The translations under genes and the position numbers were made by a program. From JALSIF01 sp026981635 [NCBI: bacterium] (GTDB lineage Bacteria; 4484-113; JALSIF01), in assembly GCA_026981635.1 (NCBI GenBank), contig JALSIF010000317.1, positions 1 to 7,314 on the forward strand: 7,314 nt of DNA. Reading direction: 5' to 3'. The number at the start of each line of letters is the position of its first letter. The first letter of the stretch is position 1. Shown piece after piece: positions 2-4,538 of this stretch. The notes beneath the pieces were generated by a model. The model made no database searches and was not told where the DNA came from. It saw only the letters and a list, made by a program, of their open reading frames with translations.

Positions 2-436
2 GTGGACGAGAGCGACGCCGAGTTCATCGTCCCCGACCTTATCGCCGATGATGAGGAGCTGATGGCGGTGTGGCAGGAGGCCATCGCCCACTCCCTCATG
101 GCCTACCGCAGGCTTTGCGAGATGCTCTCTGTCAAGGTGGAGAAACGCTTCCCCGAGATGAAGAAGACCTACCGCAGAAAGCTGGTCCGCCAGACCGCCC
201 GCTCTGTCCTACCCAACGCCACCGAGACCAAGATCCTCATCACCGCCAATGCCCGGGCCTTGCGCCACTTCATTGAGATGCGGGCGGCAGAGGGCGCCGA
301 CCGGGAGATCCGGGTGCTGGCGGTAAAGGTGCTTGAGCTCATGCAACGTGAGGCGCCAAACATCTTCTTTGACTTTGAGGTCTACACCGCTGACGACGGG
401 GCGCCGGCCGCAAGGCCCGCCTACAGCAAGGTCTAG
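2..436 (+). CDS. thyX: Flavin-dependent thymidylate synthase ThyX, C-terminal part (5' truncated)
   Basis: ThyX makes dTMP from dUMP using methylene-tetrahydrofolate and FAD/NADPH, replacing the unrelated ThyA; it is a cytosolic homotetramer. The visible 144 codons hold the C-terminal half. The diagnostic stretch is RQTARSVLPNATETK (about residues 63-77 of the visible part), then NARALRHFIEMRAAEGADRE and IRVLA. This matches the family pattern AR-x-LP-T followed by NAR-hF-LR and EI, which supplies the dUMP- and flavin-binding arginines. The family is usually 220-280 residues and its RHRxxS signature lies further N-terminal, so that part is upstream of the window. The GTG at base 2 is simply the first codon of the open frame here and is probably internal. 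The C-terminus ends in a short Ala/Pro-rich tail before TAG. It is convergent with the aldehyde dehydrogenase gene. Family assignment is secure from the motif; activity is inferred. Confidence 0.93.
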   Translation: MDESDAEFIVPDLIADDEELMAVWQEAIAHSLMAYRRLCEMLSVKVEKRFPEMKKTYRRKLVRQTARSVLPNATETKILITANARALRHFIEMRAAEGADREIRVLAVKVLELMQREAPNIFFDFEVYTADDGAPAARPAYSKV

Positions 437-456: not shown

Positions 457-471
457 GGGGGAATATCCCCC
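457..471. terminator. Small GC hairpin at the convergent thyX / aldehyde dehydrogenase junction
   Basis: An inverted repeat GGGGGA-ATA-TCCCCC has a perfect 6-base-pair stem and a 3-base loop. It lies in the 34-base gap between two convergent stop codons and touches the TAG of the aldehyde dehydrogenase gene. Being symmetric, it could serve transcripts from both sides. No T-tract follows on either strand, so it is not a classical intrinsic terminator. A second 8-base palindrome, AGAGCTCT, lies at 443-450. The terminator role is inferred only from position. Confidence 0.3.
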
Positions 472-2093
472 TACCCTCCCCGGCGGCGGCGCAGGAAGTC
501 CTCCACCATGCGGCGGATCTGCTCTTCACTGAGGGCAAACTGATCGTTTCCCGCCGGCCTTCCCGCCACCACGGTGGGCTGACCCACCGCTGGTGCAGTC
601 CCGGCTAGGGCGGCTCCTCCCCCCTCCTCGATGGGCACCTGGCCCACCATGGAGCGGGAGGGAGAGGGCCTCAGGCTGCCCTGCTCCCTAAAAGTTGGCA
701 GGGGCTTGTCGGTGTAGCCGTTTTTGGCCCTAACCATCTCCCAGGGGACCGACTCGTAGGCCAGCCTTTTTCGGTTGATGAGATGGAGGGGGGTGATGTT
801 GTCGCTGGTGGCACTGCCCCCCCAGGTTCCGCTGCCCAGGGTCATGGCGGGGGGCAGGTTGGTGGTTAGTCCGATGGAGCCCTGGGAGGCGGGGGTGTTT
901 ACCAGGATGCGAAAGACCGGCTTTTCCAGGGCGAAGGCCATGATCACCTCGGGGTCCTCGCCGTGCACCACCAGGGTGTGGCCCACCCCGCCCAGGTTTA
1001 CGATCTCAATGCAGCGCCGGCAGCCCTCCCGCCAGTCCTCCACCTCCCAGAAGCAGATCACCGGCGAGAGCTTTTCCCGGGTGAGGGGATAGTCCCGGCC
1101 CACCGCGGGCTCTTCCACCACAATCATGGGGGTCCCCTCGGGGATCGAAAAGCCTGCCCACTCGGCCAGCACCCAGGGGGCCTGGCCGACGATCTTGGGG
1201 CTTATGCGCCCCCCGGGAAACATCAGCTCCTGAAGCTTTGCCGTCTCCTCCCGGCTGGCGAAGTAGCAGCCCCGGCTCAGGAGCACCTCCCGCGCCTGGG
1301 GTGCCACCTTGCGGTCCACCACGATGGACTGCTCGCTGGAGCAGATCACTCCCCAGTCAAAGGTCTTGGAGGCGATGATGTCGTCAATCGCCTTCTCCAC
1401 ATTGGCCGACTGGTGGATGTAGGCGGGGACATTGCCCGGCCCCACCCCCAGGGCGGGGTTGCCGCTGGAGTAAGCCGCCCGCACCATGGCGGTGCCACCG
1501 GTGGCCAGGATAATGCCAGTGAGCCGGTGGCCCATCAGCTCCTTGGTCCCCTCCAGGGTGACATTGTGGATGGACTGGACGGTGGCACGGGGAGCACCGG
1601 CTCTTACTGCCGCCTGGTCAAGCAGGTCGCAGAGCTCGGCGATGCACTTTCTGGTCCTGGGGTGGGGAGCAAACACCACCGGGTTGCGGGACTTTACGCT
1701 GATCAGGGCCTTGTATATGACGGTGCTGGTGGGGTTGGTGGAGGGAGTGATGCCTGCCACAATCCCCACCGGCACGGCTATCTCAGCGATGCCCAGCTCC
1801 CGGTCCTCGGCGATCACCCCGACGGTGCGCAGGGGAAGGATAAACTCCAGCACCCGATCGGTGGCGAAGCGGTTCTTCATCTCCTTGTGATCGGGCCTGC
1901 CGTAGCCGGTCTCCTGGTGGGCCAGCTCGGCAAAGTGGCGGGCCTTCTCCCGTGCCGCCTCGGCCATGGCTATGCAGATCTGGTCAACCTGCTCTTGGGA
2001 AAACTCCTTCAGGGCGTGGTAGGCCAGCTCGGCCGCCCGCAGGCGGTCCCTCACCTCCTGGATGGAGCGAATGTCGGGGTCAAGTTCAGCCAT
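471..2093 (-). CDS. CoA-acylating aldehyde dehydrogenase, microcompartment-associated (EutE/PduP-like)
   Basis: Predicted to oxidise a short aldehyde to acyl-CoA with NAD+ and CoA, the core reaction of catabolic microcompartments. Residues 1-450 are an aldehyde dehydrogenase fold of the acylating branch: PVGIVAGITPSTNPTSTVIY (108-127), GVGPGNVPAYI (216-226), catalytic Cys251 in VICSSEQSIVV, and TLGSGTWGGSATSDNITPLH (418-437), the last typical of EutE/PduP and the AdhE N-terminal domain. EutE and PduP are about 465 residues; this one has 540. The excess is a Pro/Gly/Ala-rich linker (about 463-517) and a final amphipathic helix, FALSEEQIRRMVEDFL (519-534), which resembles the encapsulation peptides that target cargo to shells. 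The start ATG follows an in-frame TAG two codons upstream. The nearest SD-like sequence, GAGGGAG, is about 15 bases away, so initiation may be weak. It lies 46 bases after the shell gene. The substrate could be acetaldehyde, propionaldehyde or sulfoacetaldehyde; sequence alone does not decide. Confidence 0.92.
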   Translation of the reverse strand: MAELDPDIRSIQEVRDRLRAAELAYHALKEFSQEQVDQICIAMAEAAREKARHFAELAHQETGYGRPDHKEMKNRFATDRVLEFILPLRTVGVIAEDRELGIAEIAVPVGIVAGITPSTNPTSTVIYKALISVKSRNPVVFAPHPRTRKCIAELCDLLDQAAVRAGAPRATVQSIHNVTLEGTKELMGHRLTGIILATGGTAMVRAAYSSGNPALGVGPGNVPAYIHQSANVEKAIDDIIASKTFDWGVICSSEQSIVVDRKVAPQAREVLLSRGCYFASREETAKLQELMFPGGRISPKIVGQAPWVLAEWAGFSIPEGTPMIVVEEPAVGRDYPLTREKLSPVICFWEVEDWREGCRRCIEIVNLGGVGHTLVVHGEDPEVIMAFALEKPVFRILVNTPASQGSIGLTTNLPPAMTLGSGTWGGSATSDNITPLHLINRKRLAYESVPWEMVRAKNGYTDKPLPTFREQGSLRPSPSRSMVGQVPIEEGGGAALAGTAPAVGQPTVVAGRPAGNDQFALSEEQIRRMVEDFLRRRRGG

Positions 2094-2139
2094 GGCCCAC
2101 TAGCCGGCTCCCTCCCACCTCCGAGGCAAAGCTCTCACC

Positions 2140-2664
2140 TCAGATGCGACCAAGCTTTCTGAAGGCGTCCAGCAGTTCCTGCTTGGTCGCACTGCTGATC
2201 TCCCTGCCAGAGAGGGGGAAGTTCTCCGTCCGCCGGGCCAGATTCCTCAACTCCCTCACGGACAGACCTTCCAGAGCTCCTCCCTCACCGGAAGCAATAC
2301 GAGATGGTGATGGCTCCCTTCCTCCGCTCTGTCCTTGGGGGACCTCCCTCCTCCCCAGGGTCCGCAGTTTCTCCACCCGAGGACTCTTAAGAAGCTCATC
2401 CACCATCCCGTGGGGGCGAGGAATCACATGGACGAAGAGAAGCTCCCCCACTCTCTGGGCAGCCGCAGCTGCCGCATCCACTGCCGCCTTGACCGCCCCC
2501 ACCTCGCCCAGGAAGTAGACCGTCATCAGTCCACCGCTGGAGCGCTCCTTCCTGAGCAGGGTGACGTCGGCGGCCTTGAGGCCTGCATCGGCCGCTTCAA
2601 TCATGCCGACCAACCCGCGGGTCTCAACCATGCCCAGGGCCCTGTCGGCATACCGGTCAGCCAT
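2140..2664 (-). CDS. BMC-H microcompartment shell protein with C-terminal SAP/Rho-N-like extension
   Basis: Residues 9-91 form one Pfam BMC domain (PduA/EutM-like): [20 protein letters not shown], Lys30 in the LKAADV helix, [20 protein letters not shown] (53-72) and VHVIPRPH (78-85). Such proteins form hexamers that tile a protein shell. By alignment to PduA the pore loop (GSG there) reads S43-G44-G45, within [10 protein letters not shown]. Typical BMC-H proteins have 90-105 residues; this has 174. After a Ser/Gly/Arg-rich linker (about 92-130) comes [15 protein letters not shown] (131-145), then [17 protein letters not shown] (152-168). This helix-turn-helix pattern resembles Rho N-terminal or SAP domains. 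EutK is a known precedent of a BMC domain fused to a nucleic-acid-binding-like tail. The start ATG has a very good SD. It follows the other shell gene by 12 bases and is about 73% identical to it over the BMC domain (60 of 82 by hand count), indicating a tandem duplication. Confidence 0.93.
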
Positions 2665-2668
2665 GAAG

Positions 2669-2675
2669 ACCTCCT
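2669..2675 (-). promoter_or_regulatory. Strong ribosome binding site for the extended shell protein
   Basis: On the minus strand AGGAGGT is followed by CTTC and ATG, an almost ideal Shine-Dalgarno sequence with a 4-base spacer. It lies in the 12-base gap after the TAG of the first shell gene. It is the best SD in the window, fits high-level translation of a structural shell protein, and fixes the start at 2664. Confidence 0.75.
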
Positions 2676-2676
2676 G

Positions 2677-2985
2677 CTAGGTCTCCTTCCCCACCCGCTC
2701 GGTGTAGCCACCGGGGATGATGGTCTCCACCTCAGCGTGGGGCCGCGGGATGACATGGACGCTTTTTAGCTCGCCCACCCGCTGGGCCGCGGCAGCCCCC
2801 GCATCTACCGCCGCCTTGACCGCGCCCACCTCACCGCGGACGAAGACGGTGACGAAGCCGCCGCCGATCACCTCCTTGCCCACCAGGTGGACATCGGCTG
2901 CCTTGACCATGGCATCGGCAGCCTCAATGGACCCGACCAGACCGCGGGTCTCAATCATCCCGAGGGCTATCTCCCTGATGTCCAT
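2677..2985 (-). CDS. BMC-H microcompartment shell protein (PduA/EutM/CcmK-like hexamer)
   Basis: A 102-residue single BMC-domain protein of standard length and probably the main shell hexamer. It has [20 protein letters not shown] (7-26), Lys28 in [27 protein letters not shown] (51-70) and VHVIPRPH (76-83), all close to the PduA/EutM consensus. The pore loop reads G41-G42-G43 (VIGGGFV), where PduA has GSG. The open frame extends 37 codons further upstream, but those codons are low-complexity and unrelated to BMC proteins. The start chosen, [10 protein letters not shown], gives the usual length and has an SD-like GGGGAGGT upstream. It follows the lipoprotein gene by 64 bases with no convincing internal promoter or terminator between them, and precedes the extended shell gene by 12 bases. 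The family is certain; the identity of the compartment is not. Confidence 0.96.
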
Positions 2986-3049: not shown

Positions 3050-3469
3050 TCAGCGGCCAAATCCGAAGGAGGGTGGCCCGAAGCCTTTTTCCTCACTCTC
3101 CTCTGGAGATTTAACTTTCACCGTCAGCTTTACCGTCCTGCCCGGCTTAAGAACGACCTGGCTTACATCAGCCTCCATCACGGTACCCTTCGCCGTTTTT
3201 ATGGTCAGGTTGTAGGTTGCAGGAGGAACCTTAGATAAAACCACGACCCCATTGTCAGGTACCGACTGGACTATCCGGTCCTGAACTGATGAGCTACCTA
3301 TCGGTTCCAGCACCACCTGGACAAATCCGCGCCGCATACCGGTCTGAGCGTCCACCACGGTGATGGCGATGGTGCCAGGGTAGTCCTTGAACTTGCCACA
3401 GCTGGTGGAAACGGCCAGGAGAAGGGCCATCACCCCGCCTGCCAGTCCTGCCAGGATAGCCTTGCGCAT
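3050..3469 (-). CDS. Small predicted lipoprotein with a beta-sandwich-like domain, function unknown
   Basis: I do not recognise a named family. Starting at 3469 it has 139 residues: a basic N-terminus (MRKA), a hydrophobic segment (about residues 6-20) and Cys24 in [11 protein letters not shown]. This is consistent with a type II lipoprotein signal peptide, although Ser instead of Leu at -3 makes the lipobox imperfect. The rest alternates beta-like segments, including [43 protein letters not shown] and TVKLTVKVK. This is reminiscent of carboxypeptidase-regulatory or PEGA-type beta-sandwich domains of surface proteins. The tail ([17 protein letters not shown]) is charged and then Gly/Phe-rich. 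The start at 3469 has GGGGAG with a 6-base spacer; an alternative ATG at 3475 is in frame and adds two residues. It sits 16 bases after purM and 64 before a shell gene. A membrane lipoprotein between a purine gene and cytosolic shell genes is odd, and any functional link is unproven. Confidence 0.72.
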
Positions 3470-3475
3470 GGTCAT

Positions 3476-3485: not shown

Positions 3486-4538
3486 TCACCTTTCCAAGCC
3501 TAGCAGCCTCACCTCGCCCTTTCCTTCAACCAACCTCCCACAAACAAACCCTTCAAACCCTGCCTGGGTGGCAACCTCCACTGCTTTGCCCTCATCCCCT
3601 GTTGCCACAACTGCCAGGTAGCCTGCCCCCATGTTGAAGGTGTGCCACATCTCTTTAGGGGACACCCCACCACGGGCGGCGATTATAGCAAACACCTTTG
3701 GGGTGGGGATGGAGCAGGTATCCACTTCAGCGTCAAGCCCGGCCGGCAAGACCCGGGCCAGGTTGTCCTCAATGCCGCCCCCCGAAACGTGGACCAGCGC
3801 CTTAAGACCAACTCCTTCTTCCCTGAGCCTTGCCACCAGCGGGGCATAGCAAAGGGTTGGGCGAAGCAGGGCATCAACCAGAGCCTCCCCGAGCTCCTCC
3901 CAGGGGCGCGTCCACTCCTCATCACCGAGCCCCTCAAACACCCTGCGCACCAGGGTGTAGCCGTTGCAGTGGACCCCGCTTGAGGCAAAGCCCACCACCA
4001 CATCGCCCGGCTCCATGAGCTCCGGCCTGGGGAGGGGGTCCCCCTCAAGCCTGCCCAGGCCAAAACCTACCAGCTCATAGGTCCCCGGAGGATAGAGGTC
4101 CCCCAGTTCTGCGATCTCCCCCCCCACCAGGGCCGCTCCGATCCGGGAACACTCCTCGGCCATCCCCGCCACCAGCTCCTCAATCACCTCCGGCACCACC
4201 CGGTGGATGCCTATGTAGTCCAGAAGGAGCATGGGGCGGGCGTCGGTAGCCACCACATCGTTCATCACCGCCGCCACCAGGTCCCTGCCCGCATCCCGGT
4301 GGCGGCCAAAGCGGCTGCTTAAAAGAAGCTTTGAGCCCACTCCGTCGGTGCTGGCGGCAAGCAGGGAGCCGTCGGGAAGCCGGTAGAGGGCAGCAAATCC
4401 CCCCACCGAGGAGACCACCTCCGGGCCCAGGGTGTTCTTAACCAGGCGCCTTATGCGGGAGACCGCCTCGTCTTGGGCGGCGATGTCCACCCCCGCCTCC
4501 TTGTAGCTAAGGCCCCTCTTCTCGCCCTCACTTCCCAC
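3486..4538 (-). CDS. purM: Phosphoribosylformylglycinamidine cyclo-ligase (AIR synthetase) PurM
   Basis: Catalyses ATP-dependent ring closure of FGAM to aminoimidazole ribonucleotide in de novo purine synthesis; a cytosolic homodimer. At 350 residues it matches the usual length of about 345. Landmarks in order: YKEAGVDI (12-19), ASTDGVGSKL (62-71, ATP/metal-binding loop), MNDVVATDA (92-100), ALVGGEIAEL (136-145), SSGVHCNGYTLVRR (186-199), HVSGGGIEDNLARVLP (250-265) and HTFNMGAGY (299-307). All are family hallmarks. The start is GTG; the codons before GLSYKEAGVD contain no other start, and no SD precedes it. A -10-like TAGACT lies 6 bases upstream, suggesting a leaderless message. It is the first gene of the minus-strand cluster leading into the lipoprotein, shell and aldehyde dehydrogenase genes, and diverges from recF. 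No purN, purF or purL is adjacent. Confidence 0.97.
   Translation of the reverse strand: MGSEGEKRGLSYKEAGVDIAAQDEAVSRIRRLVKNTLGPEVVSSVGGFAALYRLPDGSLLAASTDGVGSKLLLSSRFGRHRDAGRDLVAAVMNDVVATDARPMLLLDYIGIHRVVPEVIEELVAGMAEECSRIGAALVGGEIAELGDLYPPGTYELVGFGLGRLEGDPLPRPELMEPGDVVVGFASSGVHCNGYTLVRRVFEGLGDEEWTRPWEELGEALVDALLRPTLCYAPLVARLREEGVGLKALVHVSGGGIEDNLARVLPAGLDAEVDTCSIPTPKVFAIIAARGGVSPKEMWHTFNMGAGYLAVVATGDEGKAVEVATQAGFEGFVCGRLVEGKGEVRLLGLER

Follow-up and report, generated by a model that had tools for sequence, protein, structure and literature searches.

The stretch analysed here, referred to throughout as the window, is the entire contig C317 (7314 bases) of a metagenome-assembled genome (MAG) of 1.75 Mb in 317 contigs, with a completeness of 85% and a contamination of 0.7%. 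Its minus strand carries a series of genes that runs from purM through a lipoprotein-like open reading frame (ORF) to two genes for BMC-H, the hexameric shell protein of bacterial microcompartments (BMCs), and then to an aldehyde dehydrogenase (AldDH), converging on thyX (Table 1). The shell genes are contiguous, with a gap of 12 bases, and AldDH follows the second of them after 46 bases. Their BMC domains score 99.1 and 90.0 bits against a Pfam cut-off of 24.5 for PF00936, and the window holds no gene of PF03319, the family of the vertex protein BMC-P. An earlier, sequence-only reading had described the three genes in series between purM with a lipoprotein gene and thyX, and had noted that BMC-P is missing from the window; matches to PF00936, PF00171, TIGR00878 and PF02511, and the zero count for PF03319, bear out both statements. 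It had overlooked a SAP/Rho_N-like tail on the second BMC-H. We propose, with a probability of about 0.78, that the window is one piece of a dispersed metabolosome, split from a five-gene core of BMC-H, tailed BMC-H, AldDH, PduL and BMC-P. Below, G numbers denote genomes, with G000 the source of the window, and L numbers denote loci.

A PF03319 search of the same genome located two adjacent BMC-P genes at positions 85-683 of contig C42, which terminates 30 bases past the stop codon of the second. Upstream on the same strand lie genes for an M48 peptidase, a 4HBT thioesterase and a 5'-nucleotidase C-terminal protein, and the next ORF beyond these was read by eye as a release factor. The thioesterase-like gene (L046:1529-2014), two genes upstream of the BMC-P pair, might free the acid from acyl-CoA instead of PduL. 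In this 85% complete MAG, the PF00936 search returned only the two window genes, hence no BMC-T, and searches of the genome sequence for PduL and EutB gave no match; because of the incompleteness, these absences carry little weight. Of the components that the sequence-only reading had suggested seeking in the genome, BMC-P was thus recovered, and BMC-T, PduL and EutB were not. Its proposal that the locus is a satellite of a distant BMC locus holds insofar as vertex genes lie on another contig; since no complete main locus was found, with no further PF00936, PduL or EutB match, the window looks like one part of a compartment whose genes are dispersed, and not like a satellite of a conventional locus.

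The tail of the second BMC-H links the window to other genomes. The same tail is present on the second BMC-H of G059, where it is 52% identical over 46 residues. A tail profile built from three rows (window, G059 and L122) matched 13 of 385 genomes at E ≤ 1e-4, two of them (the source genome and G059) by construction and 11 independently, and always on or beside a BMC-H. Among the 11 of 60 genomes that carry PF00936, only the source genome and G059 have the tail, so it is not general to BMC-H. It shares one frame with the BMC domain in 12 of the 13 tail genomes, and in G079 about 100 bases separate it from the BMC-H ORF that precedes it. The G079 tail (L195:1073-1608) starts just past the second BMC-H frame and may reflect a split gene or a frameshift.

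Gene order recurs along with the tail. The tailed gene (in G079, the ORF preceding the tail) directly follows another BMC-H gene in 11 of the 13 genomes, and AldDH adjoins it in five (the source genome, G136, G144, G281 and G285), which belong to four families. The exact order of the window is found in the source genome, G136, G144 and G281, spanning three families; the synteny on which the sequence-only reading had laid weight extends in these distant genomes to the three genes, and the purM and thyX surroundings are not shared. In our judgement, this repetition is probably more than chance. All five core genes stand in a row in G144, the sole sampled genome in which they are contiguous, and G281 has the first four before its contig ends inside PduL. 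G136 keeps the core order with insertions and a third BMC-H, while G059 has its BMC-H pair, an AldDH-PduL pair and the matching BMC-P on separate contigs. BMC-P lies beside the tailed gene in G184, and the G285 locus contains EutB. After the five-gene core of G144 comes an ACT-domain protein (L218:4595-5008) whose N-terminus looks by eye like an encapsulation peptide, followed by a DUF711 protein.

BMC-P is present in all 12 other tail genomes. In a BMC-P tree of 99 rows and 92 columns, from which matches under 60 residues and contained duplicates had been dropped, both C42 proteins fall into a nine-row clade (support 100/99), the other seven rows of which are single proteins from the tail genomes G136, G184, G144, G079, G219, G350 and G059. 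With one C42 protein on a long branch and so short an alignment, detail inside this clade is uncertain. Elsewhere, genes of this kind do disperse: in the tail-less genome G021, a single contig, the PF00936 and PF03319 genes are spread over 0.09-2.85 Mb.

Among NCBIfam models, the AldDH matches TIGR02518 best (562.8 bits, short of the curated cut-off of 620.1), which presumably equates to IPR013357, the family of type-I BMC AldDHs, and its best match among solved structures is the acetylating acetaldehyde dehydrogenase 5j78. Cys251, within the motif ICSSEQS, is what we take to be the catalytic residue. A long linker leads to a C-terminal amphipathic stretch (residues ~520-536) that resembles an encapsulation peptide; of all 527 stretches of 14 residues in the protein, the one that begins at residue 522 has the highest hydrophobic moment. 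Similar C-terminal ends occur on the AldDHs of L048, L086, L129 and L163. A C-terminal encapsulation peptide on type-I BMC AldDHs is described in PMC8217296.

A scan of named genomes yielded 394 confirmed relatives of the AldDH, of which the best 80 were kept. The flanks of these 80 contain BMC-H in 22 cases, only BMC-P in 1, only PduL in 3 and none of them in 54. BMC-H without a BMC-P or PduL match was seen at 12 acidobacterial, aminicenantid or unnamed loci and at the Clostridium locus L156, with several flanks ending at a contig edge. Among 18 loci chosen by hand from the best 80, BMC-P is present somewhere in 16 of the genomes (all but G061 and G067), including 10 of the 12 with a BMC-H + AldDH pair; it is therefore common for AldDH and BMC-H to stand at a distance from BMC-P, and PMC8217296 describes AldDH or shell genes set apart in the ACI and FRAG types.

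The second BMC-H comprises a BMC domain (residues 9-84), a basic linker and the tail (residues ~129-171, about 43 residues). No Pfam or NCBIfam model covers the tail above its cut-off, the best being Fan1_SAP (E 0.13, 12.7 bits vs 27), and the match of the NCBIfam EutK model is confined to the BMC portion. When five other tails were compared with family models, that of L122 came closest (Rho_N 19.0 bits vs 24.9, SAP 18.0 vs 23.9). Overall, three of the five gave weak matches, the first to Rho_N, SAP and HeH/LEM (E 0.0014-0.016), another to SAP and HeH (0.0076 and 0.02) and a third to Fan1_SAP (0.074). AlphaFold2, run with three sequences, gave low confidence for linker residues 95-129 and a compact helical tail, with blocks of the predicted local distance difference test (pLDDT) of 84-91 over residues 131-170; modelled alone, the tail has a mean pLDDT of 86.4. 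Structural matches of the model, all under Z 8, include Rho N-domains (Z 3.8-5.0), FAN1 (4.3), T4 endonuclease VII (4.3), 3'hExo (3.0-4.2) and a TFIID chain (4.2-5.5). These predictions are suggestive of a helix-extension-helix fold like that of SAP and Rho_N. Thirteen of 14 tails are basic, with an isoelectric point above 9. Matches of the tail to Arc repressors (pArc 6.7e-4; five others 0.76 to 1.5) were discounted as probable chance, no Arc protein being among the structural matches.

BMC-H extensions of up to 200 residues, most often C-terminal, are reported in PMC8217296, and the tail may be implicit in the FRAG tables or hidden Markov models (HMMs) of its supplements. Our literature search found no paper joining microcompartment shell proteins with a SAP domain. 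A parallel is offered by Salmonella EutK, likewise a BMC-H, whose C-terminal domain is positively charged and might bind nucleotides according to PMC12487888; loss of EutK leaves compartments mostly polar. The window tail differs in resembling SAP/Rho_N.

The analysis shows the gene set, the BMC-P pair on a second contig, a gene order that recurs, a BMC-P clade with a matching distribution and the predicted fold of the tail, whereas shell formation, cargo loading, substrate and tail function are inferred. Hexamers of the basal BMC-H would form most of the facets, and pentamers of the C42 BMC-P proteins would cap the vertices. The C-terminal peptide of AldDH would draw the enzyme into the shell, where it would oxidise a short aldehyde, most likely acetaldehyde, to the acyl-CoA. 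The second BMC-H, with its SAP/Rho_N-like tail on a flexible basic linker, may act like EutK and tether or space the compartment via nucleic acid; by this analogy, the tail would position the compartment on nucleic acid. The ancestral five-gene core, contiguous in G144, would have come apart differently in different lineages, the window and C42 being two of its pieces.

Several observations weigh against this interpretation. The genome yielded no PduL, EutB, BMC-T or clear signature enzyme, the searches not extending to alcohol dehydrogenase, Pta or glycyl radical enzymes. None of nine genomes of the same class has a BMC-H or BMC-P match, which leaves the arrangement without confirmation from close relatives; among the genomes searched, the compartment is thus known from one genome of its class. 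In a quick-mode tree with long branches, the branch of the AldDH is itself long and moderately supported (Shimodaira-Hasegawa-like approximate likelihood ratio test 82), and the support that this tree offers is weak. One C42 BMC-P protein also lies on a long branch (1.8), and the BMC-P clade is absent from five of the 13 tail genomes (G222, G308, G346, G281 and G285), a count mitigated by the contig break inside PduL in G281 and by the EutB-containing locus in G285. For the tail, all matches to SAP, Rho_N and HeH are below cut-off and two of the five further tails match nothing. The VIA Z of its model is at most 5.5, and such values can mean merely a common arrangement; Foldseek returned no match under E 0.001, and the G136 tail is not basic.

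The chief uncertainty comes from the fragmented and incomplete MAG, in which C42 may be near the window and whose unrecovered part may contain the missing enzymes. This leads to the best-surviving alternative, that of a single locus cut by the assembly, in which the BMC-P pair would lie just past thyX and the genes would be nearly contiguous and little dispersed. The left edge of the window falls inside thyX, 470 bases from the AldDH stop codon, and C42 ends 30 bases after its BMC-P genes, so that a short missing contig could join them. The same edge qualifies the claim of the sequence-only reading that the cluster ends inside the window, which is right on the purM side and is not secured on the thyX side. 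However, the ends of the two contigs do not overlap, their longest shared word being 11 bases (which a short gap would still allow), and thyX would divide the two gene sets even if C42 adjoined. Other tail genomes have the BMC-H pair and BMC-P on different contigs, as in G308, where about 169 kb separate the BMC-H pair from the nearer end of its 435-kb contig and BMC-P is on a 658-kb contig. We consider a single cut locus unlikely.

Quite improbable, in our view, is a decaying remnant of a lost metabolosome, for which the missing PduL and EutB matches and the lack of BMC-H and BMC-P in all nine class relatives could be cited. All three open frames are intact, the presumed catalytic cysteine is present, purine-rich sites precede both BMC-H starts (read by eye), and the gene order is kept in other families. 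The sequence-only reading had also offered a reduced compartment or a shell-like sheet for aldehyde oxidation, considered here as an open arrangement of shell proteins around AldDH without vertices. Just two BMC-H genes and no BMC-T in the genome would fit it, but the genome has two BMC-P genes, and their clade occurs solely together with this type of BMC-H; as genes for vertices are present, the idea is not needed, and we regard it as very improbable. Finally, a contig misbinned from another organism, which the absence of BMC-H and BMC-P from the nine class relatives might suggest, is scarcely credible given that its MutS is closest to the same class and that its composition is like that of C42 and of another contig of the MAG, C59.

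The window contig thus probably belongs to its MAG, as judged from sequence comparison. The seven best matches of its MutS among other genomes are all from the same class, and the other two genomes of that class, G004 and G001, each align with it in two segments, at 34-48% identity. By tetranucleotide composition, C42 comes first among the 14 stretches compared with the window (correlation 0.964), and the guanine-cytosine contents of window and C42 are 0.649 and 0.629, respectively; composition alone is weak evidence for a shared origin because unrelated stretches also reach 0.902.

In the terms of Axen et al. (2014), the window is a satellite-like locus, which that paper (PMC4207490) defines by the presence of PF00936 or PF03319 only, contiguous shell genes and a BMC-related enzyme. 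The window has one shell family, a 12-base gap and such an enzyme; it departs from this type in that no complete locus was found elsewhere in the 85% complete MAG. Dispersed metabolosomes are a kind already described as FRAG BMCs by Sutter et al. (2021, PMC8217296), who report shell genes spread over a number of places in the genome with few enzymes or none beside them, an AldDH sometimes close and an occurrence in many candidate phyla, with a BMC-P triplet as a common feature. Here, the shell genes are on two contigs, which may lie near or far apart in the chromosome, enzymes are few and an AldDH is nearby. In contrast, two BMC-P genes were found in this incomplete MAG, both in a clade that contains none of the triplet members in the tree, no BMC-T was found, and C42 breaks off after the second BMC-P. 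The system appears to work like a FRAG BMC; in view of the distance between the pieces, the triplet and the type-specific HMMs, its membership is no more than possible, and we refrain from filing it as one.

Two other kinds of locus resemble the window. ACI-type AldDH satellites and BMC-H/AldDH pairs (L097, L098, L100, L103, L106, L108, L120, L121, L130, L153, L158 and L159) place BMC-H beside a related AldDH with no BMC-P or PduL match in the examined flank. Unlike the window, these 12 loci have no tailed BMC-H in those flanks, and their AldDH bears another C-terminal domain in 11 cases, the twelfth (L153) being cut at a contig end. In the acidobacterial pairs (L100:6045-7688, L106:9863-11593, L121:2399-4051 and others), AldDH ends in a conserved domain near 'DFVSE.DVR....IHAKTLLTPSARELGE' that replaces the short helix and is possibly another targeting or binding module. 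EUT-like loci (G285, and by reading L122 and L149) have a tailed BMC-H beside the same AldDH family, whereas PduL, BMC-P and further shell genes lie together there and EutB is shown in G285 only. An ethanolamine function was considered and set aside as unsupported, EutB occurring in one of 20 genomes, G285.

Few BMC types are as poorly understood as the dispersed ones, as genes that lie scattered offer no functional context. If tailed BMC-H and matching BMC-P clade served as a common signature, scattered pieces could be assigned to one organelle across genomes, and a tail like those that bind nucleic acid offers a testable idea of how dispersed compartments are positioned. A bolder generalization, tentative and on balance doubtful, is that many lineages share a distinct BMC type in which a basal BMC-H and a second BMC-H, whose SAP/Rho_N-like tail binds nucleic acid, go with a type-I AldDH, with PduL and with a BMC-P clade specific to the type. 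The genes might drift apart because binding of the tail to the nucleoid, and not co-expression from an operon, would assemble and position the compartments; the organism of the window would then be near-minimal, with two BMC-H and two BMC-P.

Outside the putative compartment genes, purM is the upstream neighbour, and beyond it lie, divergently, recF and the 5' part of mutS. No Pfam or NCBIfam family matches the lipoprotein-like ORF above its cut-off. Promoter and terminator scans of the window yielded no more than in shuffled sequence.

Table 1. Coordinates of the genes in the window and the evidence for each.
Feature	Position	Strand	Evidence
CoA (coenzyme A)-acylating AldDH, 540 aa	471..2093	-	PF00171 8.8e-21; TIGR02518 6.9e-169
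Second (tailed) BMC-H, 174 aa	2140..2664	-	PF00936 9.9e-26
Basal BMC-H (EutM/PduA/CsoS1-like), 102 aa from ATG at 2985	2677..2985	-	PF00936 1.4e-28 on longer frame opening at 3096
Small lipoprotein-like ORF, next to purM on the side of the BMC genes	3050..3475	-	N-terminus read by eye
purM, upstream neighbour, outside the compartment	3486..4538	-	TIGR00878 297.4 bits vs cut-off 236.35
thyX, 3' half only, at contig edge, converging neighbour	2..436	+	PF02511 positions 92-191 of 191

Class II aldolases were considered as an aldehyde source. The source genome has one such gene on C59, the contig whose composition resembles that of the window, between genes read as RNase PH and a transporter; its examined surroundings hold no BMC gene, and no obvious targeting peptide was seen by eye. 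In G308 (L228:6294-7112) and G346 (L229:7691-8485), a class II aldolase adjoins three BMC-P genes per locus and is a possible aldehyde source for the dispersed compartments of these two genomes.

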